Below the pieces are notes generated by a model. It searched no databases and was not told where the DNA came from. It was given only the letters and a program-made list of their open reading frames with translations. Source: a virus. Taken from it: 21,671 bases of DNA. Shown piece after piece: positions 1 to 11,230 of the stretch (the stretch's first letter is position 1; each line of letters begins with the position of its first letter). The DNA is taken from positions 1-21,671 of the IMG/VR virus record IMGVR_UViG_3300009176_000084; one strand, 5' to 3'. The position numbers and the translations under genes are program-made.

Positions 1-72
1 CACTTTTTCGCACCGTGTCCCATTGGGCGAATTTGCGAACTAGCACAACAATTTGAGAGGGGAAAGCGAATT
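1..72. other. Leader of the small terminase gene, possible end of an upstream gene
   Basis: No complete gene is visible. A frame starting at base 2 is open from the window edge to a TAG at 41-43 and could be the last dozen codons of an upstream gene, but nothing in so short a tail identifies it. The frame of the terminase gene is also open to the edge. A purine-rich Shine-Dalgarno stretch (GAGAGGGGAAAG, 55-66) lies just before the ATG at 73 and fixes that start. Confidence 0.4.
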
Positions 73-540
73 ATGGCCGCACGCGGAAACAAGGGAAAGC
101 CGACCATCTTAAAACTGGTTTCGGGCACTGCGCGCGCGGATCGGATGCTACCGAACCAACCCGATGCACGCGGCGAGATTGGCGACGCACCGGGGCACTT
201 CAACGAACTTCAGCGGGCTTGCTGGGATGAAGCGAAGGGCACGTCCGCCGATGGATTGCTCACAGCATGCGACCGCCCGCTATTCGGCGCCTACGCGCTA
301 TCGAATGCCGCGCTGATCGCGGCGACGAAGGAATTCAACCGAACGGGAAACGCAATCCTGTTGCGAAGCGATCAGGACGACGCGCGCTTGATCGTGAATC
401 CGTACTTGAAGGACATGCGGCGAAGCATCGAGATGATTCGCCAGCTAGCCAACGAGTTCGGATTTTCCCCGGCCGCGCGGACCCGCATTTCGCTTCCGAC
501 CGGCGAAAGTCTCGACGACCCGCTAGCGAAATTTGTCTGA
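73..540 (+). CDS. terS: Phage terminase small subunit, P27 family
   Basis: This 155-residue protein is the DNA-recognition subunit of the packaging motor. It should bind the packaging site and hand the concatemer to TerL. The N-terminus (MAARGNKGKPTILKLVSGTA) has the basic, 'KPT-LK--GT' pattern of P27-type small terminases. A middle section rich in Trp, Asp and Leu follows (FNELQRACWDEAKG), then a C-terminal helical part (about residues 110-155), matching the family's usual 130-170 residues. The start at 73 is chosen from the strong GAGAGGGGAAAG ribosome site and the family-like N-terminus. TerL is the other packaging gene but lies 1.3 kb downstream, separated by three plus-strand genes, a terminator and a minus-strand gene; in most relatives the two are adjacent. 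Family assignment is by pattern recognition. Confidence 0.85.
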   Translation: MAARGNKGKPTILKLVSGTARADRMLPNQPDARGEIGDAPGHFNELQRACWDEAKGTSADGLLTACDRPLFGAYALSNAALIAATKEFNRTGNAILLRSDQDDARLIVNPYLKDMRRSIEMIRQLANEFGFSPAARTRISLPTGESLDDPLAKFV

Positions 541-551
541 AAGGAAACGTC

Positions 552-710
552 ATGATTGCTCTGATATTGATGATTCTTGCGCTAGTCGCATTCCTGATCG
601 CCGCGTTTGGCGTCGCTACTCCGCGGCTTTCGCTCGACTGGACCGCGGTCGGACTCGCCTTCGTGGGGGCGGCGTGGCTTGTGACGCACGTAACGCACGT
701 CGCGGCATAG
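552..710 (+). CDS. Small two-segment membrane protein, function unknown
   Basis: This 52-residue hydrophobic protein has two likely membrane helices, at about residues 2-21 and 29-46. The linker holds PRLSLDW. The ATG at 552 has a good ribosome site (AAAGGAAA, 539-546) starting right at the terS stop. The longer open frame that begins at 267 is rejected as a start because it would overlap terS and has no ribosome site. The next gene starts 6 bases after this stop and is also a tiny membrane protein, so the two may act together. Small phage membrane proteins can be holin-like, antiholin-like or superinfection-exclusion factors. Nothing here decides between these and no endolysin is in the window. 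Confidence 0.65.
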   Translation: MIALILMILALVAFLIAAFGVATPRLSLDWTAVGLAFVGAAWLVTHVTHVAA

Positions 711-716
711 AGGCGC

Positions 717-863
717 ATGACGCGAACATCGAAAGCCGCGCTTTCGCTGTTGCTTGCGCCGTTGGCGATAGGCGCGGCTTTCGTTCTTGTCAAATACTGG
801 TTCGTGTGGACGCCGGTCGCTGCGCTGTTGGCGGCGGTCCTGTTCATCGACAGCAAGCGATGA
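717..863 (+). CDS. Small two-segment membrane protein, function unknown
   Basis: This 48-residue protein has a short basic N-terminus (MTRTSKAA) followed by two hydrophobic stretches, at about residues 8-25 and 30-44, and ends in a basic DSKR tail. The positive-inside rule would place both ends in the cytoplasm. Its TGA overlaps the next gene's ATG (ATGA at 860-863), a typical translational-coupling arrangement. Only 6 bases separate it from the membrane gene upstream. Support comes from the packing, the coupled overlap and the membrane-protein composition; no family is recognised. Confidence 0.6.
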   Translation: MTRTSKAALSLLLAPLAIGAAFVLVKYWFVWTPVAALLAAVLFIDSKR

Positions 864-1552
864 TCCATTACCACGGGACGCCGATATCGCCGCGCGATCA
901 ACTGTTGCGCATGGGCGGGCGTCACTTTTGCATTTCGATCATTGACCCGCGCGACTTGGCGACGTGCATCCGGATCGGGCAGTCGGTCTTGCTCGACAAC
1001 GGCGCGTTTTCGCACCATACCCGCGGGACCCGGCCGGACTGGTCGGCGTTTTACAAGTGGATTGCGCCGGTACTCGGGCATCCGCATTTCGCCGTGATTC
1101 CCGACGTGATCGACGGCAACGAAGAACAGCAAGACGCCCTGCTTGCCGAATGGCCGTTTCGCCGGTCGCTCGGCGCGCCGGTATGGCATCTAAACGAAAC
1201 GCTGTCGCGGCTCCTGTCGCTGGCGGACCGTTACCCGCGCGTGTGCTTCGGATCGTCGGGCGCGTTCTGGCAAATCGACTCGCCCGCGTGGCGCCGCCGC
1301 ATGGATGAAGCGTTCAACGCGCTGGCGAAAAGCGGTCATGGCGTGCCGTGGATTCACGGCTTGCGCATGCTCGGGCAAACGGACGGCGATTGGCCGCTTG
1401 CAAGCGCCGACTCGACGAACGTCGCGCAAAGCTTCAAGCGGGATACGGGTTGCGCTGAATGCAAGGCGGCGCCGATTGACGCGAGTCAGACGCCGCTATT
1501 TTGGAATCCGCGACCGACGCAGCAAGACTTGCTCGGCGCAGTTATGAACTGA
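860..1552 (+). CDS. DpdA / tRNA-guanine transglycosylase-like protein
   Basis: This 230-residue protein shows motifs resembling the TIM-barrel transglycosylases that exchange guanine for 7-deazaguanine bases: TGT on tRNA, and DpdA on DNA in some phages and bacterial islands. In order these are LLDNGAF (44-50, at the place of the 'DSGGF' substrate loop), IPDVIDG (80-86, a strand-end Asp), WHLNET (109-114), VCFGSSG (128-134), IHGLRMLG (165-172) and ADSTNV (183-188). Two cysteines near the C-terminus (C198, C201) recall the TGT zinc site, but the full ligand set is not evident. It is much shorter than TGT (about 380), as phage DpdA-like proteins often are. No preQ0 synthesis genes (folE, queC, queD, queE) occur here, so any 7-deazaguanine would have to come from the host or from elsewhere in the genome. 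The start is fixed by the ATGA overlap with the preceding membrane gene. DNA modification against host restriction is inference; an uncharacterised phage TIM-barrel protein is the alternative. Confidence 0.5.
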   Translation: MIHYHGTPISPRDQLLRMGGRHFCISIIDPRDLATCIRIGQSVLLDNGAFSHHTRGTRPDWSAFYKWIAPVLGHPHFAVIPDVIDGNEEQQDALLAEWPFRRSLGAPVWHLNETLSRLLSLADRYPRVCFGSSGAFWQIDSPAWRRRMDEAFNALAKSGHGVPWIHGLRMLGQTDGDWPLASADSTNVAQSFKRDTGCAECKAAPIDASQTPLFWNPRPTQQDLLGAVMN

Positions 1553-1569
1553 CGGGTCCCCTCCCGTTG

Positions 1570-1613
1570 AACCGGCGTTGCTGTTCCCTCCCTTCAGCGC
1601 GCCGGTTTTTTTT
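1570..1613 (+). terminator. Rho-independent terminator after the DpdA-like gene
   Basis: An 8-bp stem AACCGGCG (1570-1577) pairs with CGCCGGTT (1600-1607). An extra inner GCTG/CAGC pairing (1580-1583 with 1595-1598) continues the helix across a small bulge. A run of eight T follows (1606-1613), partly within the stem. It lies 17 bases after the stop of the DpdA-like gene. Its right half and T-run lie inside the 3' end of the minus-strand HTH gene. Confidence 0.85.
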
Positions 1614-1836
1614 CGCCGCCGCGCGCCCGACACTCGAAATCCGGATGAAGCCCCGTCATCAAAAGGAAATATTGCCAGCGCGTCGCGTCGATGCGCCGGG
1701 CGCCGGTTTCATATTCGCACCATCGAGGCGGGCCGGACAGCAACGCGATCCGCGCGCAGTCCGCTTGCGTGAGGGCGGCGGCGGCGCGGGCGCTGCGCAC
1801 GTCGTCGGGGGAAGGGTTCGAGGTCGGGAACGTCAT
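1594..1836 (-). CDS. Small helix-turn-helix (XRE-like) DNA-binding protein
   Basis: This 80-residue protein has a single helix-turn-helix core at about residues 10-60: SPDDVRSARAAAALTQADCA, a recognition-helix region around RWCEYETGARRID, and TRWQYFLLMTGLHP. The '-R-AR---LTQ-' opening and 'W--YE-G-R' continuation are characteristic of small XRE/Cro-type phage regulators. The ATG at 1836 is preferred over an upstream in-frame ATG at 1926, because the HTH domain begins soon after it and the longer form would overlap terL. The ribosome site is weak. It is convergent with the DpdA-like gene and divergent from terL, with 22 bases between starts. A TATATT on the minus strand (1875-1880, inside terL) could be its -10 box, though no good -35 was seen. 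It may control terL or the upstream segment; the target is unknown. Confidence 0.7.
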   Translation of the reverse strand: MTFPTSNPSPDDVRSARAAAALTQADCARIALLSGPPRWCEYETGARRIDATRWQYFLLMTGLHPDFECRARGGEKKPAR

Positions 1837-1858
1837 CTTGCGCAAAGCGTAAGGCAAT

Positions 1859-3565
1859 ATGGGGCGACCGCGCAAATATAACGATCCCGTGACCCGGTAC
1901 GCCCGCGATGTGCTGGCGCAATCCATCGTCGCCGGGCCGCACGTGCGCGATGCGTGTCGGCGGCATTTGTCCGACTTGGAACTCGCGACCGCGCGCGGAT
2001 GGCGGTTCGACGTGGAAAAGGTCGACCGGGCGCTATCCTTTTTTCCGGCGATCCTTCGCCTAAACGGCGGCGAATTCGAGGGCGCGGCGTTCGCGCTCGC
2101 GCCGTTTCAGGAATTCATTGTCGGCAGTGTGTTCGGATGGGTTGATACCGAAGGACGGCGCCGCTTCCGCGTTTGTTATGTGGAAACCGGCAAGGGCAAC
2201 GGCAAGTCGCCGCTTGCCGCCGGGATTGGGCATTACATGCTCATTGCCGATCAGGAACCGCGCGCCGAAGTCTACGCGGCGGCGACGAAAAAAGATCAGG
2301 CGATGATTCTATTTCGCGACGCGGTCGCCATGGTGCAACTGTCCCCGTCGCTGTCATCGCGCATCACGCCGATAGGCGGGCAGAATTGCTGGAATCTCGT
2401 TTACGGGGGATCTTTTTTCCGGGCGATATCGAGCGATGACGGCCAGTCCGGCCCGCGTCCGCACTGCGCGCTGATCGACGAGATACACGAACACAAGGAC
2501 GACGTCGTCATCGAAATGTTGCGCGCCGGATTCAAGGGGCGCCGTCAACCGCTGTTGTTCATGATTACGAACAGCGGAAGCGACCGCCAGTCCGTGTGCT
2601 TTCGGTATCACGAACGCGCCGTCAACATTGCCGCGGGCGCGCTGCAAGACGACCGTTTCTTTTCCTACGTGTGCGCGGTCGACAAGGACGACAAGCCGTT
2701 ACAGGATGAATCATGCTGGCCGAAAGCCAATCCGAACTTGGACGTCACGATAGATCACGACTATTTGCGCGACCAAGTCCGCGAAGCGTTGCAGATGCCA
2801 GCAAAGGAAGCGACCGTCCGCCGGTTGCACTTTTGCGAGTGGACCGAAAGCGCGAACCCTTGGATATCCCCGGAAGTGTGGCAAGCGGCGCTGCGCAAGT
2901 TCGACCCCGAAGAATTGCTGACCGGGACAATCCATCTCGGGATCGACCTGTCCGTCGTCACGGACTTGACCGCAATCGCCATCGTGCAACGCCGCGTCGA
3001 CGAACTCGGCGTCACGCGTTACCGCGCCGCGGTCGAGTTCTTCGCGCCCGCCGAGGGCGTCGTCGAGCGATCCGCGCGCGACCGCGTGCCGTTCGATCAG
3101 TGGATACGCGAAGGGCATTTGAAAACGACGCCGGGCGCCGATATCAAGTATTCGTTTCTCGCGCAACGGCTCGGGGAAATCCGCGCGCGCGCGCACATCT
3201 CGCAAGCCGCGTTCGACCGCTATCGAATCCGCGAACTGAAAAAGGAACTCGAAGACCAAGGTATATGGATAACGATGGTCGAGCATCCGCAAGGCACGCT
3301 GCGATCCACGGAAACGGACCTTTACATGCCGCTGTCAATCGAGATACTCGAATCGGCGTTGCTCGAAAAGCGCATCGAGATTTGCGAAAATCCCGTCCTG
3401 ACGTGGAACGCGGCGTCCGCGATGACCGAAGCCGACCGGCAACTAAATCGCGTGTTCACGAAGCGCAAGTCGACCGGGCGCATCGACGGCGTCGTCGCGC
3501 TGGCGATGGCGGTCGGCGCGGCCGAAACAGCGAAGCCGCGCTTACCGATGATCGAAGTTATCTAG
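1859..3565 (+). CDS. terL: Phage terminase large subunit (Terminase_1 / HK97-like)
   Basis: This 568-residue ATPase-nuclease drives DNA into the prohead through the portal and cuts the concatemer. The N-terminal ATPase has a deviant Walker A, ETGKGNGKS (109-117), a Walker B, ALIDE (204-208, with D207 and E208), and a coupling motif, MITNSGS (235-241). The C-terminal RNase H-like nuclease shows the expected acidic residues: LGIDLS (D363, with D369 close by), AFDRYR (D453) and GRIDGVVALAMA (D543). Length is normal for the group and no lesion is seen. The ATG at 1859 has a modest AAGG ribosome site. It overlaps the convergent minus-strand gene by 8 bases at its 3' end. With a terminator upstream and an antisense HTH gene in between, it must either have its own promoter or depend on read-through. 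Confidence 0.95.
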   Translation: MGRPRKYNDPVTRYARDVLAQSIVAGPHVRDACRRHLSDLELATARGWRFDVEKVDRALSFFPAILRLNGGEFEGAAFALAPFQEFIVGSVFGWVDTEGRRRFRVCYVETGKGNGKSPLAAGIGHYMLIADQEPRAEVYAAATKKDQAMILFRDAVAMVQLSPSLSSRITPIGGQNCWNLVYGGSFFRAISSDDGQSGPRPHCALIDEIHEHKDDVVIEMLRAGFKGRRQPLLFMITNSGSDRQSVCFRYHERAVNIAAGALQDDRFFSYVCAVDKDDKPLQDESCWPKANPNLDVTIDHDYLRDQVREALQMPAKEATVRRLHFCEWTESANPWISPEVWQAALRKFDPEELLTGTIHLGIDLSVVTDLTAIAIVQRRVDELGVTRYRAAVEFFAPAEGVVERSARDRVPFDQWIREGHLKTTPGADIKYSFLAQRLGEIRARAHISQAAFDRYRIRELKKELEDQGIWITMVEHPQGTLRSTETDLYMPLSIEILESALLEKRIEICENPVLTWNAASAMTEADRQLNRVFTKRKSTGRIDGVVALAMAVGAAETAKPRLPMIEVI

Positions 3566-3956
3566 GACCCTTGCCGGGCATGACGCCGCCTTCGGGCGTC
3601 ACGTGCCACGGTTGACCCCACAAATTCAACAACACTTTGACGGCTTCGCGATTGATCGGACGATTTCGCAGCGCGCGCGGATTCATTAGCCGCACGGTCT
3701 GCGGCTCGATATCGAACAGCGAATAGAATTCCTTGCGCATGTAGGTCTTGCCCGAGGCCGTCGAGACGACAACCCCGCCGCGTTCAAGCCACGCGTGCAA
3801 GTGGCGGTGGTCGTTGTAGGGATTGGGACCCATGACGCCGACCGCGATGCGCCATCCCGGATCGCTCACGCGAAGCTTTCCCCATGCGTCGATTGCCTGA
3901 TGAAAACAACCGCCCAAACCCGGGGCGGTTGCGACGTAACGGGCGAACTCGATCAT
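3558..3956 (-). CDS. Transglutaminase/papain-like fold protein, function unknown
   Basis: This 132-residue protein has GGCFHQA near the N-terminus (C17) and HRHLHAWLE (H54, 50s region), followed by GVVVSTASGK and KEFYSLFDI. The spacing of an early Cys in a helix and a later HAW-E before a beta strand resembles transglutaminase-like Cys-His-Asp folds. At the place where such proteins usually carry the third-residue Asp ('vvD') this one has Ser/Thr (S65-T66), so catalysis is doubtful or uses another residue. The ATG at 3956 has a clear AAGGTG ribosome site (3965-3970, read on the minus strand) and overlaps the stop of the preceding minus gene as ATGA. Its 3' end runs 8 bases into terL. A phage accessory gene (moron) is the likely status; its target is unknown. 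The fold assignment is a pattern-level inference. Confidence 0.55.
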   Translation of the reverse strand: MIEFARYVATAPGLGGCFHQAIDAWGKLRVSDPGWRIAVGVMGPNPYNDHRHLHAWLERGGVVVSTASGKTYMRKEFYSLFDIEPQTVRLMNPRALRNRPINREAVKVLLNLWGQPWHVTPEGGVMPGKGPR

Positions 3957-4159
3957 GACTTGTTCACCTTCAACGCGTGTTCAAGCACGCGCCTTCGTTC
4001 CTGTTGCGTCAGTTCGGCAATCTCGGCAAGGCAACGGATCGCGAAGCGGCGGACCGATTCCTTGTCGAAGGTCGAGCGCCGCGGCCGTTTGATGCCGTAT
4101 TTTTTGCGCGCTTCCGGGGTCAGGTCCGCGATGTTCAATCGCGCGGCTTTCGTGGTCAT
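3953..4159 (-). CDS. Small basic protein coupled to the transglutaminase-like gene
   Basis: This 68-residue protein (MTTKAARLNIADLTPEARKK to its C-terminal ALKVNKS) is rich in Arg and Lys and mostly helical by eye, with a KYGIKRPRRSTF centre and a TQQERRRVLEHALKV helix at the end. The ATG at 4159 is chosen over the upstream in-frame start at 4213 because AAAGGAAAG sits just before it. Its TGA overlaps the ATG of the next gene downstream on the minus strand, so the two are very probably one operon with coupled translation. It could be a nucleic-acid-binding regulator or a partner of the second protein; no family is recognised. The pair interrupts the plus-strand packaging and capsid genes. Confidence 0.65.
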   Translation of the reverse strand: MTTKAARLNIADLTPEARKKYGIKRPRRSTFDKESVRRFAIRCLAEIAELTQQERRRVLEHALKVNKS

Positions 4160-4321
4160 GGTCTTTCCTTTCGTCAGTGGATTTGAATGTGCCGTTTGCG
4201 CACGTTCGCGCATTCGACAACGTCATTTTATCAAATCGACTTTTCGAAATTTCCCGAAACGAACGAACCGACAAGGACTTACCGAAATCCGCCGACTGAT
4301 TCCATTGGCGAAAAATAGTGC

Positions 4322-4349
4322 TTGACACGGGTTTAGCCGGTTTTCGGAT
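4322..4349 (+). promoter_or_regulatory. Candidate sigma-70-type promoter for the capsid gene
   Basis: A perfect -35 hexamer, TTGACA (4322-4327), is followed after 16 bases by TCGGAT (4344-4349), a 3-of-6 match to TATAAT. It lies upstream of the protease-capsid gene in an otherwise gene-poor region. The weak -10 keeps confidence low. Confidence 0.3.
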
Positions 4350-4487
4350 TTGCCGGGACAAAATGACGCCGCCGCAAAAATATTTTCGTGTGCGCTGAAT
4401 CCGTCCCGCTCTGTTTTGCCGTGTCCGTGTGCGTCCCGCGGCGTCTCACAACTGCGCCGACCTGAGCCGCCCGGGCCTTGCGCTTCG

Positions 4488-4510
4488 AAAAAAAATAGCG
4501 GACATTCCGC
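4488..4510 (-). terminator. Candidate minus-strand terminator
   Basis: Read on the minus strand, a 5-bp stem GCGGA/TCCGC (4498-4510) with a 3-base loop is followed by TA and eight T (4488-4497). It would stop antisense transcription from the capsid region before it reaches the minus-strand cassette. The stem is short and the loop tight, so this is tentative. Confidence 0.35.
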
Positions 4511-4516
4511 GCCAAC

Positions 4517-4615
4517 ATGGGAGAACGCAACCGCCCGCCGCAATTTGTGCGACGGGAAACGCCGAAGCCGACACCGCCGCCAATCGCGCCGGGGACGCCG
4601 ACTCCCAAAAAGTAA
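4517..4615 (+). CDS. Possible 32-residue proline-rich peptide
   Basis: An ATG at 4517 opens a 33-codon frame whose product is basic at the start (MGERNRPPQFVRRE) and proline-rich at the end (TPKPTPPPIAPGTPTPKK). Its codons (GAA, CCG, AAG, CGC, GCG) match the surrounding genes better than the competing longer frames do. There is no good ribosome site, it sits behind a hairpin, and the gene is too short for certainty. It may be a small head-region protein or chance. Confidence 0.25.
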   Translation: MGERNRPPQFVRRETPKPTPPPIAPGTPTPKK

Positions 4616-4664
4616 ACACGACCAAGCGGCGACGGATTGCCGGTCCGCATAGGGAAGCAAGCCT

Positions 4665-6620
4665 ATGGACCGCGCACTTTTCCCGACAGGCGACCGCTGC
4701 AAAGCGTTTTCAGTCCTTACACTGAAAACCGTCGACGCCGCGCCGAGTGCCAAGCGCCGGTTGATCGGCACCGCGACAACCCCGAAGCCCGACCGCATGG
4801 AAGACGTCGTTGCACCCGACGGCGCGCAATTCTCGTTGCCGCTTTCCTTCCTTGCGCATCACGACTCGCGCGAACCAATCGGCAATGTCGTGTCCGCGAA
4901 AGTGTCCGCCGACGGCATCACTATCGAATGCGAGATACCCAGCGAAGACGAAGTCGCCGCACAAAACGGCGCGCTTGATTACATCGAGCGGGCGTGGTCG
5001 CAAATAAAACTGAAACTTGTCCGCGGACTGTCAATCGGATTTCGTCCGCTCGAATGGGAACCGATCAAGGGAACGAACGGGTTCCTTTTCAAAAAATGGG
5101 AATGGCTTGAACTGTCGTCCGTGACGATCCCGGCGCAGTCCGAAGCCACCATCGACACGATAAAGGCACTAGCGCACGGCAGAGTCCCCGCCGCGTCCGG
5201 CACCAATGCGACCGCGCCGCGCTTGTCCCTTCCTTCCGCCGCGTCCGGCGCGATCCGCAAAAACCTTCAGGTATCAACTGCCATGAATCTATCGCCACGT
5301 ATTGAAGCGAAGCAAAACGAAATCGCAGCGCTTCGCGATCAGCATGCGACATTGGAAGCATCCTTCGCCGACCGCGATCCCAGCGAAGACGAATCCGCAC
5401 AAGTCCTTGCACTGTGCGACCGGATCGACGCCGAAGAACGGACGCTTGCAACCTTCAAGCGTTCCGAACAATCGCGCGCGCACCAAACGACCGCCGTCGT
5501 CCCCGCTTCGGGACAGCGTTCCGCGTCGATTCACACGATGCGCCCGCGCACCATTCAGCGCGCGCAAAAAGCCGACTTGATAATGAAGGCGGGAATCTGC
5601 GTCCTGCGTGGACACGCGCGCAAGGCGAACCCCTTCGATATCGCCAAGACGGACTTTGCAGGGGACGAAGAACTGGCGCTGATCGTGAAAGCCGCGGTCA
5701 ACCCCGCGGACACGGTCACGCCGGGATGGGCAAAGGAACTCGTCGGCGAACAGGTCGGCGAACTGGTCGACGTGCTGGCGCCGATTTCGGTTTATGGCGC
5801 GCTGGCATCGCGGGCGCTGCGCGTGAACTTCAGCGGCGCCGGACTGATCCGCGTGCCGTCACGTTCGAAGACGCCGAACCTTGCGGGCGTGTTTGTCGGC
5901 GAAGGCAAGCCGATTCCCGTCAAGCAGGGTCACATCGACAGCGTGAATCTGTACCCGCACAAGGCCGCTGTCATCTCGACGTTCACGCGCGAACTCGCGA
6001 TGGCGACGTCGAACCCTTCGATTGAAAAAGTGATCCGGGATGGCATTCTCGACGACACGTCGATTTATATCGACACGGCGTTGCTCGATGCCGCCGCCGC
6101 CGACTCGATCCGACCCGCCGGTTTGCTGAACGGCGTCGTGACGATCCCGTCGTCGGGCAATGCTTCGGATGACATGCAAGCGCTGTTGACGGCAATCGTT
6201 GCCGCTGGCGGCGGGCGCAGTGTGGTCGTCATCATGAACCCGATCCGCGCAATAAGCCTTGCGTTCACGACCAACGCGACCGGCGCTTTCATCTACCGCG
6301 ACGAACTCGCGCAAGACCGTTTCTTCGGCGCGTCGGTCATTCGTTCGACCAATGTTCCGCCCGGAACAATCATCGTCATGGACGCCGCAGACTTCGCGAC
6401 CGCGACGGGCGATTCGCCGGAATGGGACGTTTCCGACGTGGCAACAATCCATGAGGAAGACACGACCCCGTTGCCGATTGTCGACGCCGCGGGCGTTGCT
6501 GCGAAGCCGATCCGCTCACTGTGGCAAACGGCTTCGATTGGCATCCGGATGATTTGGCCGCTGACGTGGGCCATGCGTCGCACCGGGATGGTCGCGGCGA
6601 TGACGGACGCTGCTTGGTAA
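4665..6620 (+). CDS. Fused HK97-type prohead protease and major capsid protein
   Basis: This 651-residue fusion contains three parts. Residues about 10-180 form an S78-type prohead protease: SFLAHHDS holds the catalytic His (H66, next to D67), GLSIGF holds the nucleophile S123, and LSSVTIPAQSEA follows as in the family. A charged helical linker (about 207-270) looks like the scaffolding delta domain that the protease removes. Residues about 340-651 form an HK97-fold capsid (NPADTVTPGWAKELVGEQ, then VPSRSKTPNLAGVFVGEGKP and PAGLLNGV). AGGGAAG (4651-4657) supports the ATG at 4665. An in-frame ATG at 5283 (M207), preceded by a weak AGGT, begins exactly at the delta domain and could give a capsid-only product of 445 residues. 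A strong terminator follows. The family roles are well established; the internal start is inference. Confidence 0.93.
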   Translation: MDRALFPTGDRCKAFSVLTLKTVDAAPSAKRRLIGTATTPKPDRMEDVVAPDGAQFSLPLSFLAHHDSREPIGNVVSAKVSADGITIECEIPSEDEVAAQNGALDYIERAWSQIKLKLVRGLSIGFRPLEWEPIKGTNGFLFKKWEWLELSSVTIPAQSEATIDTIKALAHGRVPAASGTNATAPRLSLPSAASGAIRKNLQVSTAMNLSPRIEAKQNEIAALRDQHATLEASFADRDPSEDESAQVLALCDRIDAEERTLATFKRSEQSRAHQTTAVVPASGQRSASIHTMRPRTIQRAQKADLIMKAGICVLRGHARKANPFDIAKTDFAGDEELALIVKAAVNPADTVTPGWAKELVGEQVGELVDVLAPISVYGALASRALRVNFSGAGLIRVPSRSKTPNLAGVFVGEGKPIPVKQGHIDSVNLYPHKAAVISTFTRELAMATSNPSIEKVIRDGILDDTSIYIDTALLDAAAADSIRPAGLLNGVVTIPSSGNASDDMQALLTAIVAAGGGRSVVVIMNPIRAISLAFTTNATGAFIYRDELAQDRFFGASVIRSTNVPPGTIIVMDAADFATATGDSPEWDVSDVATIHEEDTTPLPIVDAAGVAAKPIRSLWQTASIGIRMIWPLTWAMRRTGMVAAMTDAAW

Positions 6621-6645
6621 AGAGTTAGACAAGAGGGCACGACGC

Positions 6646-6678
6646 ACCCGGCGCGAATGAAAGCGCGCCGGGTTTTTT
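6646..6678 (+). terminator. Strong rho-independent terminator after the capsid gene
   Basis: A perfect 10-bp stem, ACCCGGCGCG (6646-6655) with CGCGCCGGGT (6664-6673), encloses an 8-base loop and runs into six T (6673-6678). It lies 26 bases after the capsid stop and 24 bases before the next gene, so it may attenuate rather than fully end transcription, giving more capsid than neck mRNA. Confidence 0.9.
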
Positions 6679-6701
6679 CACGAAATGAGGGGGCGCGGGA
6701 C

Positions 6702-6893
6702 ATGACTGCAATTCTCGATGCAATCGTCGCGATCATCGTCGGCATTCCCGTGACTCTGGTCGCAACCGTCACGAATAACGAAGTCGCCTTGTGTGATCGC
6801 ATGGGCGGCACCTATCAATCCGCCCCGGCGCCGACGGACGTTTGCCCGGGCGGTCACTGGTCGTCACTTGTCAGGCGAAAGGATCATCCATGA
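6702..6893 (+). CDS. Small protein with an N-terminal membrane helix
   Basis: This 63-residue protein has a hydrophobic helix at about residues 4-23 (ILDAIVAIIVGIPVTLVATV). A short, probably exported part follows with two cysteines (C31, C48) in a Gly/Pro-rich context (CDRMGGTYQSAPAPTDVCPG), which could form a disulfide in the periplasm. The ATG at 6702 is preferred over the in-frame ATG at 6657, because that one lies in the terminator loop while GAGGGGG precedes 6702. Its TGA overlaps the next ATG (ATGA, 6890-6893). It begins the overlapping neck operon. No family is recognised. Confidence 0.65.
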   Translation: MTAILDAIVAIIVGIPVTLVATVTNNEVALCDRMGGTYQSAPAPTDVCPGGHWSSLVRRKDHP

Positions 6894-7504
6894 GAGGCAT
6901 AAGCGGAACCATCCGGCGCGCGGGGTCGATCCTTTGGTCGGGCGCACAAACAGCGTCCGAATATTTCGTGACCGCGCCCTATCTGCATTTCGTGTCGCCC
7001 GCGCGCGTGGCTATCGGCTCGGGCGCGATGGTCTTGCACGTGCGCGGCGTTTTCCAGAATGGCGACACTGTGCAAGTCGGCGGCGCCGACCGGGCGACGA
7101 CATTCGTCGACGGCGACGACATGACTGTGCCGATGACGCCCGCGGATTTCGCCGCCCCGGGAAAATTGCTGGTCAGGGTCAAGCGTGGCGCGCTGAAGTC
7201 GCGCGTCGCCCCGCTGTACGTCGGGCCTGACCCGCTGTCACCGTTGCCGCGCGCGCAATCAATCGTCCCGGACACCGTGTCGGCGGCGGGCGGCGATTTC
7301 CCGATCACGGTCACGGGGACGGGCTTCGCGCCCGGCGACGTGATCGTCGTCGACGGGGTTGCGCTGGCCGATAGCGATATCGTTTCCGCAACCGAAGCGA
7401 CCGGCACCGTCGACGTCGACATACTCGGCGCAGGGACCTATCCGGTCGCCATGCGCCGCGGCGCCGCGACGACGCAAACGAAACCGCTGACGGTTACCCC
7501 ATGA
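6890..7504 (+). CDS. Virion protein with two IPT/TIG (Ig-like) domains
   Basis: This 204-residue protein appears to be two tandem Ig-like beta domains. Domain 1 (about residues 27-110) runs from PYLHFVSPARV through VRGVFQNGDTVQVGG to APLYVGP. Domain 2 (about 118-204) runs from AQSIVPDTVSAAGG through ITVTGTGFAPGDVIVVDG to TKPLTVTP. The 'P--v-aGG--i-vtGtgF-pgd-v-vdG' pattern is typical of IPT/TIG domains. The ATG at 6890 has GAAAGGA just upstream and overlaps the previous stop; an in-frame start at 6842 lacks this. Its stop overlaps the next ATG (7501-7504). Set between capsid and portal, it may decorate the shell or contribute to weak surface binding, as Ig-like domains on phage virions often do. 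That role is inference. Confidence 0.7.
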   Translation: MRGISGTIRRAGSILWSGAQTASEYFVTAPYLHFVSPARVAIGSGAMVLHVRGVFQNGDTVQVGGADRATTFVDGDDMTVPMTPADFAAPGKLLVRVKRGALKSRVAPLYVGPDPLSPLPRAQSIVPDTVSAAGGDFPITVTGTGFAPGDVIVVDGVALADSDIVSATEATGTVDVDILGAGTYPVAMRRGAATTQTKPLTVTP

Positions 7505-7746
7505 GCCGCCGACACGACGACATGGTCGCGCTGTGGGTTCACGGCGGACCCGGACCGCACGGCGGGCCGCATTACATGCCGCGCGCGAAAGCCGAAGAAC
7601 TGATCGCCGCCGGGTTCGCTCAGGACATGAAGCACATCGACTCGCGCAAACTCAAAGCGATCAAGCCCGAGGGCGCACCCGCCGCGGGCGGCGAATATCT
7701 CACGCGCGAAATGCGCGCGGGAAAGCCGAAGCGCCGTGGCCGGTAG
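7501..7746 (+). CDS. Small basic protein between Ig-like protein and portal
   Basis: This 81-residue protein is rich in Gly and His early (VHGGPGPHGGPHYMPR), has a helical AKAEELIAAGFAQDMKHI segment at about 29-46, and ends in a strongly basic tail (KPKRRGR). It overlaps its neighbours by 4 and 11 bases, strong support that it is translated. The AEELIAAGFAQ stretch recalls small head-assembly proteins that lie between capsid and neck genes, but no family can be named with confidence. Confidence 0.6.
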   Translation: MSRRHDDMVALWVHGGPGPHGGPHYMPRAKAEELIAAGFAQDMKHIDSRKLKAIKPEGAPAAGGEYLTREMRAGKPKRRGR

Positions 7747-9151
7747 GATCGCAACCGCACTCGCGCGCGTCGCGAACGCTGTCGGGTTGCGTGGCTATGG
7801 ATCGTCACGCCCGCACGCGATGACCTTCGAAGGCGCGATCCCGTATTCGTGGCCGTGGAACTTCTGGCAAACCGGGCGCAACCCGCTTCCCTACAACGGC
7901 GCCAGCGCGGCCGTTGAATCCTGCATTTCCGCCATTTCGCAATCCATCGCGATGATGCCGGTCAATCACTGGCGCGAGACGGACGACGGCGGTCGCGAAC
8001 GCGTCATCACGTCGCCCGCCTATCGCGTCATGCGCCGCCCGAACAGTTACCAAACGCGTTCGGAATTCATCGTCAACTTGTTGCGCTCGGAACTGTTTCA
8101 GGGCAACGGGTACGCGCAAGCCGTGCGCGACGACCGCTTTCAGATTCGGGAACTGCATCTCGGGTCCCCGCGCATCGTGTCGCCGTATGTCGACCCCGAA
8201 GACGGCGCCATTTTTTACCAATTCGGTTTTAACCCGCTGGTCGATGGCGAACAAGCCTTTGACCCGGCCCGCTATGTCCCGGCGCGTGACGTGTTGCACG
8301 TGCGGCTTCACACGAACCGCGATCCGCTTTGCGGCGAAACGCCGCTGACGGCGGCGATGATGGCGGTCGCCGCGGGGAACTCGATCAGCGCACACACGGC
8401 AACCTTTTTCCAAAACATGTCCCGCCCGTCCGGCGTGCTGTCGACAAAGGACGCGATGGCGCCGGAAATCCGCGCGGAAAATAAGGCTAGCTGGAAGGAA
8501 GCGACGACCGGCGAACAGACCGGCGGAACCGCGATCCTGTATGGCGGACTCGAATGGAAGCCGCTCACGATGACCGCGGTCGACTCCGCGCTGATCGAAT
8601 CCTACAAACTGACGGTTGCCGACATTGCGCGCGTCTTTCGCGTGCCGCCCGCGATCATTGGCGAACTCGGCGGCGCCACGTTCGCGAACACGGAAACGCT
8701 GTTGCGCCATTGGATCGCGACCGGACTCGGGTATGTGATTGAGCATCTCGAACAGTCCTTCGACTACCTGTTCCGGCTTCCCGAGTCGGAATGGATTGAG
8801 TTCGATACGGACTATCTGTTGCGATCCGAGTTTGCCGCGCGCATCGACGCGTTGACCAAGGGCATCACGGGCGGGCTGTTCGCGCCGAACGAAGCGCGCG
8901 CGCGCGAGGGCTTGCCGAAGGTCGATGGCGGCGACGAGCCGTTCGTGCAACAGCAATTGCAACGCATTTCCGACCGCGCGGAAAATATCCCGCTCGATGC
9001 CGGGCGCGAACCCGCACCCGCGCCCGCTGCGCCGCCGCCGCCCGCCGCACCCGCCGCCGACCCGGCGCCGCCGAGTGCCGACGAACAGGCCGCGTTCGCC
9101 GAATTCCTAGAGCGGATCATTCATCCCGTCGACGCCGATGCAACCGACTGA
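7736..9151 (+). CDS. Phage portal protein, HK97 family
   Basis: This 471-residue protein forms the dodecameric ring at one capsid vertex through which TerL pumps DNA. Recognisable portal segments are SAAVESCISAISQSIAMMPV (about 58-77), a VMRRPNSYQT and FIVNLLRSELFQGNGYA block (about 99-126), PARDVLHVRLHT, and FRVPPAIIGELGGATFANTE with the following helices (about 302-330). The C-terminal 60 residues are Ala/Pro-rich and low in complexity. It starts at GTG (7736) with GGGAAAG about 10 bases upstream, inside the end of the preceding gene, and overlaps the next gene by 14 bases. In most HK97-like phages the portal gene precedes protease and capsid; here it follows them by about 1.1 kb. Confidence 0.92.
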   Translation: MAGRIATALARVANAVGLRGYGSSRPHAMTFEGAIPYSWPWNFWQTGRNPLPYNGASAAVESCISAISQSIAMMPVNHWRETDDGGRERVITSPAYRVMRRPNSYQTRSEFIVNLLRSELFQGNGYAQAVRDDRFQIRELHLGSPRIVSPYVDPEDGAIFYQFGFNPLVDGEQAFDPARYVPARDVLHVRLHTNRDPLCGETPLTAAMMAVAAGNSISAHTATFFQNMSRPSGVLSTKDAMAPEIRAENKASWKEATTGEQTGGTAILYGGLEWKPLTMTAVDSALIESYKLTVADIARVFRVPPAIIGELGGATFANTETLLRHWIATGLGYVIEHLEQSFDYLFRLPESEWIEFDTDYLLRSEFAARIDALTKGITGGLFAPNEARAREGLPKVDGGDEPFVQQQLQRISDRAENIPLDAGREPAPAPAAPPPPAAPAADPAPPSADEQAAFAEFLERIIHPVDADATD

Positions 9152-10373
9152 CCGCGACCGCGTGATTCTCGAACTTGTCGGCGCCGCGATCCGCAAGGAA
9201 ATCGCCAGCGTCAAGGATTCCGTGCGCGACCGCTGCGCCGAAATGGCGGCGACGCTGTCCGCGTCCGTTGCCGCGCTAGCGAAGCGGCTCGATGAATCCA
9301 TCGAGCAAACCGCCGTCGCCATGCAACAGGATCGCGACCGCATGCGCCTTGACATGGCCGAAGCGATCCGCAAGCAGATTGAAGACGTCAAAAAATTCGT
9401 GACCCTTCACGACGAGGGCGTCGTCGGCGGCGTGGGCGACTCCCTGATCGCGTTGACGAAGCGGGTCGATGAAACCATCGAGCGGGAGCGCGCCGCCACG
9501 CAAGCCGAACTGACGCGCGTCATCCGCGAAGACCTGAAGCAACTCGACGAACGCATTACGGAAAACTTCAAGACGGCGACCGCCGAACTCGACGAATACG
9601 CCGAAGAACTGATCGCCGACCGCATGGAATCGTCGTTGATGGACGTCGAACGCCGGGCGATTCTGGCCGTGCAAGCCGCGATCCCGACGCCGCGCGACGG
9701 GCGCGACGGCAAGGACGGGCGCGACGGCAAGGATGCGGCGGGGGCCGATGGAAAGGACGGCGCGCCGGGGGAGTTCATCGAGCCGGTTCAATGGGCCGAG
9801 GGTGCAACTGTGTTGCGCGGCGCGCTGGTCCTGCATCGCGGCGGCTTGTGGTATTGCCGCACCGCCACGAAGGAAGAACCGCACGCGGGCGCCGAATGGG
9901 CGTTGCTGTGCAACGGCATTGCGCGCGTCGAGATGAGCAAGACCGGCGTGCGCGAATTCGGAATTGCAATGGAACTGTCATCCGGGGACCAAGTCGCGGA
10001 AGTCGTCGAACTTCCCGCGATTGTTTACCGTGGAACGTGGTCCGCGCGCGCGTACAAGTGCGGGGATTCGGTCACGCATTCGGGCGGGCTGTGGATCGCC
10101 GACCGCGACACGGACGCCAAGCCCGGCGAAGCGGATTCAGGATGGCGCCTTGCGGTCAAGCGCGGGGACAAGGGCAAGGACGGGCATTCGCTCGACTGGC
10201 GCGGCGATTGGGAACCGGGCAAGACATACAAGGCGGGCGACGTCGTGCGGTCGCCGTCGGGCATATACGCGGCGCTTCGCATCACACTTAGCGCGCCGCC
10301 GTACCGCTCCGACCGCTCGGACGACTGGCAACTGATGATCCGCGGCAACGCGGACGGCGGGGCGATGCAATGA
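9138..10373 (+). CDS. Coiled-coil/collagen fibre with three carbohydrate-binding-like repeats
   Basis: This 411-residue protein has three parts. Residues 1-180 are heptad-rich helices, probably a trimeric coiled coil. Residues 187-211 are Gly-X-Y collagen-like (DGRDGKDGRDGKDAAG and on). Residues about 217-402 are three repeats, each with an opening V or W segment, a 'y--Gd-V--sgGlW-a' core and a closing 'P----W-L' segment: about 217-259, 296-342 and 352-402. The core is like CBM5/12-type small binding modules found on phage fibres and chitinases. A second GDKGKDG sits between repeats 2 and 3. The ATG at 9138 lies within the end of the portal gene, so translation is probably coupled; the stop overlaps the next ATG. 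It looks like a fibre that could bind surface glycans. Position between portal and connector suggests a head or neck fibre, but a tail fibre is possible. Confidence 0.75.
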   Translation: MQPTDRDRVILELVGAAIRKEIASVKDSVRDRCAEMAATLSASVAALAKRLDESIEQTAVAMQQDRDRMRLDMAEAIRKQIEDVKKFVTLHDEGVVGGVGDSLIALTKRVDETIERERAATQAELTRVIREDLKQLDERITENFKTATAELDEYAEELIADRMESSLMDVERRAILAVQAAIPTPRDGRDGKDGRDGKDAAGADGKDGAPGEFIEPVQWAEGATVLRGALVLHRGGLWYCRTATKEEPHAGAEWALLCNGIARVEMSKTGVREFGIAMELSSGDQVAEVVELPAIVYRGTWSARAYKCGDSVTHSGGLWIADRDTDAKPGEADSGWRLAVKRGDKGKDGHSLDWRGDWEPGKTYKAGDVVRSPSGIYAALRITLSAPPYRSDRSDDWQLMIRGNADGGAMQ

Positions 10374-11023
10374 CGCCCGAACTACTCGCCGCGATCAAAA
10401 TCGGCTTGTCGATTCCCGCCGACGAGACGGAAAAAGACGCGTTGCTGATGCAGCGCGGGGACTTGATCCTTGACGCCATGCGCAAGCGCACGGGCGCCGT
10501 GCTGTACCCGATTCGCCGCTTCAAAGAGATTTACCACGGGACCCGCTTCGAGGGCGCCGACCATATGGACGGCTACACGCCGCGCAAGCATCCTGTCGCG
10601 TTGCTCGAAGAACTGAAAATCAACGGCGTCCCGGTCGATGACGTGAGTTTGTATCCCGTGACGACCGACGGGCGGATTTCGTTTTACGCCGCGCCGTATG
10701 CGATTTATTCCGAACTCGAATTCACCTATCAGGCGGGCTATGAACGCGTGCCCGGCGAACTGTTCGACGCGCTGTTGAACCTGTTGCAGCAATACATCGA
10801 CGCAATCGAGTCCGGGGCAATCGGCCCGTTCACGCCGTCGAAGATTTCCCTTGTCGACGTCGGGTCCCTTGAATTCAAAAGCGGGGATTCGTTTACGGAT
10901 TTTTTCGGACCGTATGGTGCGGTCGTTGACGCTTTCGTCGTCGGCGCGGGCGCTGGCGTCGGCGGCGAACCGCTCTATCGCGAAACATACGACCTTGGCG
11001 AAGTCGTCCCGCCCGGACCATGA
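10370..11023 (+). CDS. Head-tail connector (gp6-like adaptor)
   Basis: This 217-residue protein begins with a helix typical of connector adaptors (MTPELLAAIKIGLSIPADET, then KDALLMQRGDLILDAMRKRTGA). A beta section (YPVTTDGRISFYAAP), LEFTYQAGYERVPGELFDALLNLLQQYIDAI and a Gly-rich C-terminus follow. The '-YqaGye-vP--l--Al--l--~y-----' stretch matches gp6-type adaptors that sit under the portal and receive the tail. The family is usually near 100-200 residues, so the C-terminal extension (about 150-217) is somewhat long. GGCGGGG precedes the ATG, and ATGA overlaps the fibre gene's stop. Assignment rests on sequence pattern plus position after the portal. Confidence 0.75.
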   Translation: MTPELLAAIKIGLSIPADETEKDALLMQRGDLILDAMRKRTGAVLYPIRRFKEIYHGTRFEGADHMDGYTPRKHPVALLEELKINGVPVDDVSLYPVTTDGRISFYAAPYAIYSELEFTYQAGYERVPGELFDALLNLLQQYIDAIESGAIGPFTPSKISLVDVGSLEFKSGDSFTDFFGPYGAVVDAFVVGAGAGVGGEPLYRETYDLGEVVPPGP

Positions 11024-11024
11024 A

Positions 11025-11040
11025 TTTTGTATGTACAAAA
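11025..11040. repeat. Perfect 16-base palindrome, candidate operator
   Basis: The sequence TTTTGTA (11025-11031), TG, TACAAAA (11034-11040) is a perfect inverted repeat with 7-base arms. It is the most A/T-rich spot in a GC-rich stretch, right after the connector stop and at the start of the lipoprotein gene. Symmetry and size fit a dimeric repressor site; it could also fold in mRNA and hide the lipoprotein start. No family of binding protein can be named; it is not a LexA-type CTGT-N8-ACAG site. Confidence 0.5.
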
Positions 11041-11230
11041 ATGCATGATATTGACGCTGATCGCCCTGACGGGATGCGCGACGTCGCCGCCGACGGAACG
11101 CACGGACACGCTTGCGCCGGTCGCGCTGGTCACGATATGCCTGTTTGCGCGTTGCTCCGTGACCATCCGCCGCGCGCCCGCGGCCGTGCCCGTGTCCGCG
11201 CCATGTGTGAACGAATTGCAGGCGCCCTGA
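11027..11230 (+). CDS. Small lipoprotein
   Basis: This 67-residue protein has a lipobox (IALTGC) after a hydrophobic stretch, followed by ATSPPTERT, the look of a secreted lipoprotein anchored after Cys acylation. If translation starts at TTG 11027, the signal peptide is 16 residues with a Lys near the N-terminus (MYVQKCMILTLIALTGC). If it starts at ATG 11045, the signal is only 10 residues and uncharged, so TTG is preferred; it lies 3 bases after the connector stop, allowing coupled translation. More cysteines occur later (three after the lipobox). It sits oddly amid neck genes. Candidates are a Rz1-like outer spanin, although no inner spanin is seen nearby, or a superinfection-exclusion lipoprotein. 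Confidence 0.55.
   Translation: MYVQKCMILTLIALTGCATSPPTERTDTLAPVALVTICLFARCSVTIRRAPAAVPVSAPCVNELQAP

Follow-up and report, generated by a model that had tools for sequence, protein, structure and literature searches.

Genes at the terminase locus

The window, by which we mean the whole 21,671-base stretch of viral DNA analysed here, carries between its terminase genes a gene for a DpdA-like protein (P0001), preceded by two tiny membrane protein genes (m1 and m2) and followed by a small antisense gene (Table 1).

Table 1. Genes of the window described in the text
Feature	Position	Strand	Remarks
Terminase small subunit (terS)	73..540	+	phrog_83, E=1.5e-19; left border of the slot
Tiny membrane protein m1, 52 aa	552..710	+	preceded by GAAAGGAAA
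Tiny membrane protein m2, 48 aa	717..863	+	about two TM helices by eye; stop overlaps dpdA start by 4 nt (ATGA)
dpdA-like gene, 230 aa (P0001)	860..1552	+	ATG to TGA; predicted active site H5, D46, D82, H110, H166, R169, D184
Antisense small HTH-like protein, 80 aa	1594..1836	-	right side of the slot
Terminase large subunit (terL)	1859..3565	+	phrog_9, E=2.5e-144; right border of the slot
Small convergent gene	3558..3956	-	between terL and the capsid gene; faint similarity to transglutaminases that stays under the cut-off (E=0.0017)
Small convergent gene	3953..4213	-	between terL and the capsid gene
Head protein, 651 aa	4665..6620	+	residues 19-358 match head maturation protease; major head protein families are matched as well; apparent protease-capsid fusion, judged from these matches
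411-aa protein	9138..10373	+	among structural genes; collagen-like G-D-G repeat (GRDGKDGRDGKD...)

Translation of the window gave a dpdA frame unbroken over 230 codons, and all the motifs listed in a preliminary description of this DNA are present in its product: VLLDNGAF (residues 43-50, including the reported LLDNGAF), IPDVIDG (80-86), FGSSG (130-134), HGLRML (166-171) and ADST (183-186). The G+C content per codon position (0.62/0.50/0.77) resembles that of terS, terL and the capsid gene, and homologues of P0001 were found in more than 590 IMG/VR stretches, 102 phage records and 32 bacterial genome contigs. This codon-position pattern and the wide conservation indicate that dpdA is a genuine coding sequence. 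Ten residues (H5, D46, D82, H110, G131, H166, R169, P179, D184 and S185) are invariant across 72 diverse relatives.

One IMG/VR record, L001 (IMGVR_UViG_3300010403_000381; 7,784 bases), is the same as window positions 1-7784 and shares the first base, which probably means that one DNA was assembled twice, or that this is a true end. Apart from L001, no match above 66% identity was detected.

The terS-terL slot

In about 75 of 79 TerL relatives, terS and terL are adjacent (≤50 nt). Locus L087 has a 398-nt terS-terL gap that holds an antisense HTH ORF only, while the slot of L088 is occupied by another ORF together with an antisense HTH gene. The antisense HTH protein of the window (no match in Pfam or NCBIfam) is conserved in both (42% and 50%, respectively), which are the nearest TerL relatives having a gap. 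dpdA itself was found in none of the 79 TerL relatives, and its relatives in most other phages are located among early or replication genes; it is therefore considered mobile cargo. A role in packaging was rejected, as the two terminase genes usually adjoin each other and the two gapped loci contain the HTH ORF only or another gene. The preliminary description was right in placing the gene between terS and terL, but the packaging-module setting loses its meaning, since the slot is empty or otherwise filled in the nearest TerL relatives. Judged by gene order, the terS-terL position is a place for cargo that says nothing about mechanism, and the window gene is an intact cargo gene and an ordinary member of the DpdA family.

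The preliminary description had also pointed to a tight coupling with two tiny membrane genes. The overlap of m2 with dpdA bears this out, but the arrangement is special to the window phage: a close search of IMG/VR revealed no relatives of m1 or m2, and m1 had none among 50,697 phage records. The codon-position G+C content of both genes is coding-like.

Family assignment and predicted fold

P0001 matches PHROG 887 ('queuine tRNA-ribosyltransferase') with E=7e-49. The DpdA of Enterobacteria phage 9g, which inserts preQ0 (7-cyano-7-deazaguanine) into DNA (Hutinet et al. 2019, PMC6884629), falls in the same PHROG (E=2e-98). As suggested in the preliminary description, P0001 was compared by HMM with the DpdA and TGT families. 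With hhalign, a profile built from the 72 relatives reached 9g DpdA at E=1.3e-10, i.e. there is profile-level likeness to an experimentally tested DpdA, and D46, H166 and D184 of P0001 paired with D72, H196 and D215 of 9g. Both active-site aspartates are kept and invariant, as is H166 in all 72 sequences. H196 of 9g is the conserved histidine that separates DpdA from DpdA2 (PMC6884629). As its equivalent is present in P0001, an identity as DpdA2 of the Vibrio phage nt-1 type was ruled out, although that protein has, according to the literature, a related fold and proposed reaction. 9g DpdA differs from P0001 in its length (317 aa) and in its location within a full folE-queD-gat-queC-queE cluster, where it supports dG+, and the likeness between the two is significant by profile only.

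The Pfam DpdA model PF23859 did not match P0001 even at E≤10 and recognized only one of the 72 relatives (E=0.033); it misses 9g DpdA as well. Searches of Pfam, NCBIfam and PADLOC gave zero matches to P0001.

The connection with bacterial TGT is more indirect. Neither PF01702 nor TGT profiles matched P0001 significantly, and by sequence its identification as a TGT was rejected; a faint local match between LLDNGAF and LTDSGGF of TGT had E=0.075. Since 9g DpdA likewise shows no significant TGT similarity in the same test, the link between P0001 and TGT rests on the literature, in which the DpdA of Pantoea phage MED16 was related to 2ASH by HHpred (PMC8306585). The proposed chemistry and the barrel fold are shared with TGT. 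As the preliminary description stated, P0001 is far shorter (by approximately 145 aa), and the zinc cysteines of TGT are not conserved. P0001 offers only the two cysteines of a C-terminal CxxC, C198 and C201; these are nearly invariant among close relatives but missing in L038, the Pam5 group and the MED16 group, so that a TGT-type zinc site is lacking. Of the earlier label 'DpdA/TGT-like', the first half is well founded (shared PHROG, profile alignment and barrel model), whereas the second holds only indirectly.

The AlphaFold2 model of P0001, obtained with the 72-relative alignment (pLDDT 95.9, pTM 0.91), has eight strands alternating with helices. The invariant residues sit at or just past strands 1, 3, 4, 5, 6, 7 and 8, with D46, H110, G131, H166 and D184 located at strand ends or close to them. 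Viral Foldseek matches included many phage proteins annotated as queuine tRNA-ribosyltransferase (E=1e-8 to 6e-4), and PDB matches were (beta/alpha)8 barrels with TM of about 0.5 and E≥0.02. TGT was absent among the best 50 PDB fold matches, all of them generic barrels. According to the preliminary description, a fold other than a TIM barrel or the lack of the active-site aspartates would speak against its proposal; the predicted fold is an eight-strand barrel and the aspartates align with those of 9g.

Comparison with the closest phage relatives

The closest characterised relative is gp38, the MED16 DpdA (a singleton in the 'DpdA/TGT_1' group), which shares PHROG 887 and is 43% identical over 83% of the protein; it is the best guide to the role of the window gene. 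Both phages are alike in having dpdA only, with no preQ0 synthesis genes, the window being a fragment. The proteins differ in length (261 aa in MED16, 230 aa in P0001), the C-terminal 40 residues, where P0001 has a CAEC motif, cannot be aligned, and the location between terS and terL is also unlike MED16. In MED16 virion DNA, dADG amounts to about 0.13% of G, and gp38 is the sole pathway gene of that phage; the base is scarce, the tested enzymes were not blocked, and dependence on gp38 was not proven by knock-out (PMC8306585).

Higher identity is shown by the 'transglycosylase' of Pseudanabaena phage Pam5 (48%) and the homologue in Rhizobium phage RHph_N3_2 (46%), which are equally short. Both are followed within 300 nt downstream by a YhhQ-family transporter gene, whereas none is in view in the window.

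Supply genes beside dpdA relatives

Models of FolE, QueC, QueD, TGT and the YhhQ family detected no preQ0 synthesis or import gene in the 21,671-base fragment, in agreement with the preliminary description, which saw no 7-deazaguanine synthesis gene. The base would therefore have to come from the host, or from genes in the unsequenced part. The earlier expectation of such a reliance fits the relatives, which often have a transporter-family gene or QueD/QueE beside dpdA.

Within 1.5 kb of dpdA, 62 of the 79 closest loci carry a PF02592 gene (Vut_1; YhhQ/COG1738 family). At 43 loci the nearest start codon of this gene shares 4 nt with the dpdA stop. No YhhQ-family gene was found in the 79 TerL relatives. 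The genes beside dpdA score significantly against the NCBI 'queuosine precursor transporter' model without reaching its cut-off, and the gene is therefore named here a transporter-family gene and not a proven preQ0 importer. In a tblastn search with the Pam5 protein, only 26 of 50,697 phage records contained a YhhQ-family gene. The transporter-bearing phages that were opened are Pam5, RHph_N3_2, RHph_X2_30, phiLM21, Aoka, ReqiPine5, Bhagsy (one of 12 mycobacteriophage records with the transporter), Flyfo Tbat1_6 and PEAT2. In each, a DpdA-like gene (PHROG 887, 1279 or 15826) is adjacent to the transporter gene or at most three genes away; in Erebus, dpdA, QueC and QueD are located elsewhere in the genome. 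Every transporter-bearing phage lineage opened in GenBank thus also holds DpdA. MT837598, seemingly a 'phage' with the transporter only, was discarded, as it looks bacterial by its neighbouring frames (glnE, hemH, grpE and dnaK-like, by eye).

Some transporter-free loci have synthesis genes instead. QueD adjoins dpdA in L005 and L277, and QueE is close to it in L002, L268 and L281; the QueD of L277 and the QueE of L268 pass the NCBI cut-offs. L083, L261, L265, L266, L268 and L281 carry short QueD-like genes, which give weak matches and in most cases overlap the start of dpdA. Their products (e.g. L261:1857-2156, L266:904-1203, L268:3312-3659 and L281:5702-6001) have about 100-116 aa, less than a normal QueD, and contain an HGH motif. 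In L002, a nucleoside 2-deoxyribosyltransferase-like gene (10594-11073, +; PF05014, E=9e-8) is located between dpdA and QueE.

Once redundancy was removed, 46 loci of the clade remained: 25 have the transporter, 8 have QueD/QueE, none has both and 13 have neither. QueD/QueE is thus present in 8/21 transporter-free versus 0/25 transporter loci (Fisher p=8e-4, uncorrected for phylogeny). The transporter label is clustered on the tree, its 12 gains or losses being below all 500 shuffles (mean of about 22), so this p value is optimistic. On these co-occurrence data, importing the base and making it in part look like two ways to meet one need, and the genes for them are not placed together beside dpdA. 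The window, with no supply gene in view, is unlike most relatives and belongs to the class with neither in view, the record being a fragment.

The source of the modified base in phages having dpdA only was left open by Hutinet et al. (2019), whose survey found the preQ0 transporter uncorrelated with any phage group (PMC6884629). The relatives described above suggest an answer, namely YhhQ-family import or partial synthesis (QueD, QueE). Our literature search revealed no earlier report of the dpdA-transporter pairing as a rule, although prior notice in work from 2023-2024 is possible.

Cellular carriers and the putative host

Among cellular carriers, Ideonella livida comes nearest, with a homologue 62% identical to P0001; its genome has QueC and TGT, and its sole PF02592 gene adjoins dpdA. 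From this relative and the G+C content of 62% we guess that the window phage infects a member of the Burkholderiales. TGT is present in 12/12 carrier genomes examined and a clear QueC in 10/12. The two without clear QueC, Rhizobium subbaraonis and Devosia ginsengisoli, both have the transporter gene beside dpdA, as opposed to 2/10 QueC-positive hosts. This link between QueC and the transporter stays an anecdote, as the larger sample (385 Rhizobium-class and 399 Burkholderiales genomes) yielded no further carriers in the 384 and 398 other genomes, respectively. The near-absence of the gene from cellular genomes is as expected of a phage gene.

Proposed function

Based on our observations, we suggest, with a probability of about 0.75, that P0001 is a compact phage DpdA, i.e. 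a DNA guanine transglycosylase, and we infer its preQ0-inserting activity from the characterised relatives. By analogy with 9g DpdA and TGT, D184 or D46 would attack C1' of the deoxyribose at a deoxyguanosine targeted in the phage DNA; guanine would then depart, and preQ0 of the host would fill its place. The inserted base may be converted later to dADG. Phage DNA modified in this way would be attacked less readily by restriction enzymes, or recognised less readily by sensors of unmodified DNA. A singleton DpdA alone does not guarantee a modified genome, as DNA of Mycobacterium phage Orion, which has such a gene, is unmodified in a host without preQ0 (PMC8306585, PMC6884629).

A less likely explanation is that an enzyme of the DpdA fold makes sparse, sequence-specific marks and not a bulk anti-restriction modification. 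The few labelled G sites would allow escape from host systems destroying unmodified DNA (e.g. Dpd-type restriction), or would mark DNA for a phage process. The 0.13% of dADG in MED16, whose short DpdA is homologous and whose DNA is still cut by the tested G-site enzymes (PMC8306585), is consistent with such a function, as is the modification of about 0.02% in phage 7-11, which has DpdA only (PMC6884629). However, scarce preQ0 alone may explain these low levels, and the frequent supply genes beside the relatives suggest a demand for more base.

It is very improbable that P0001 is a tRNA-guanine transglycosylase, or a competitor of the host TGT, altering wobble bases of host tRNA during infection. 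TGT and DpdA are called homologues (PMC6884629, PMC8306585) and TGT is present in the hosts of the relatives, but P0001 matches no TGT profile, lacks a TGT-type zinc site, and its nearest characterised relatives act on DNA. Just as improbable is a decayed or repurposed DpdA, incapable of base exchange and retained as a moron: the gene is rare in cells, scattered among unrelated phages and has no supply gene in view, but all ten family-invariant residues are intact, and nothing is unusual about its reading frame or codon-position G+C.

If P0001 is a compact DpdA, as we prefer, one may speculate further that short DpdAs belong to a swappable supply module, in which m1 and m2 of the window phage stand in for the importer, forming a novel, miniature pair for preQ0 uptake, although we give this the slimmest chance of all. 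Such a module would combine one DNA-modifying enzyme with either a small importer of the YhhQ type or one to two steps of preQ0 synthesis, depending on what the host lacks.

The analysis also offers clues to PHROGs 4899 and 15826, both of unknown function: the first may represent a transporter of the YhhQ family that is paired with DpdA, and the second its actinophage DpdA-like partner. The latter ('unknown function') includes actinophage proteins annotated as DpdA-like transglycosylase, and its members L325:3817-4443, L326:3444-4064 and L327:3494-4105 are each located near a YhhQ-family gene, which in L327 belongs to PHROG 4899.
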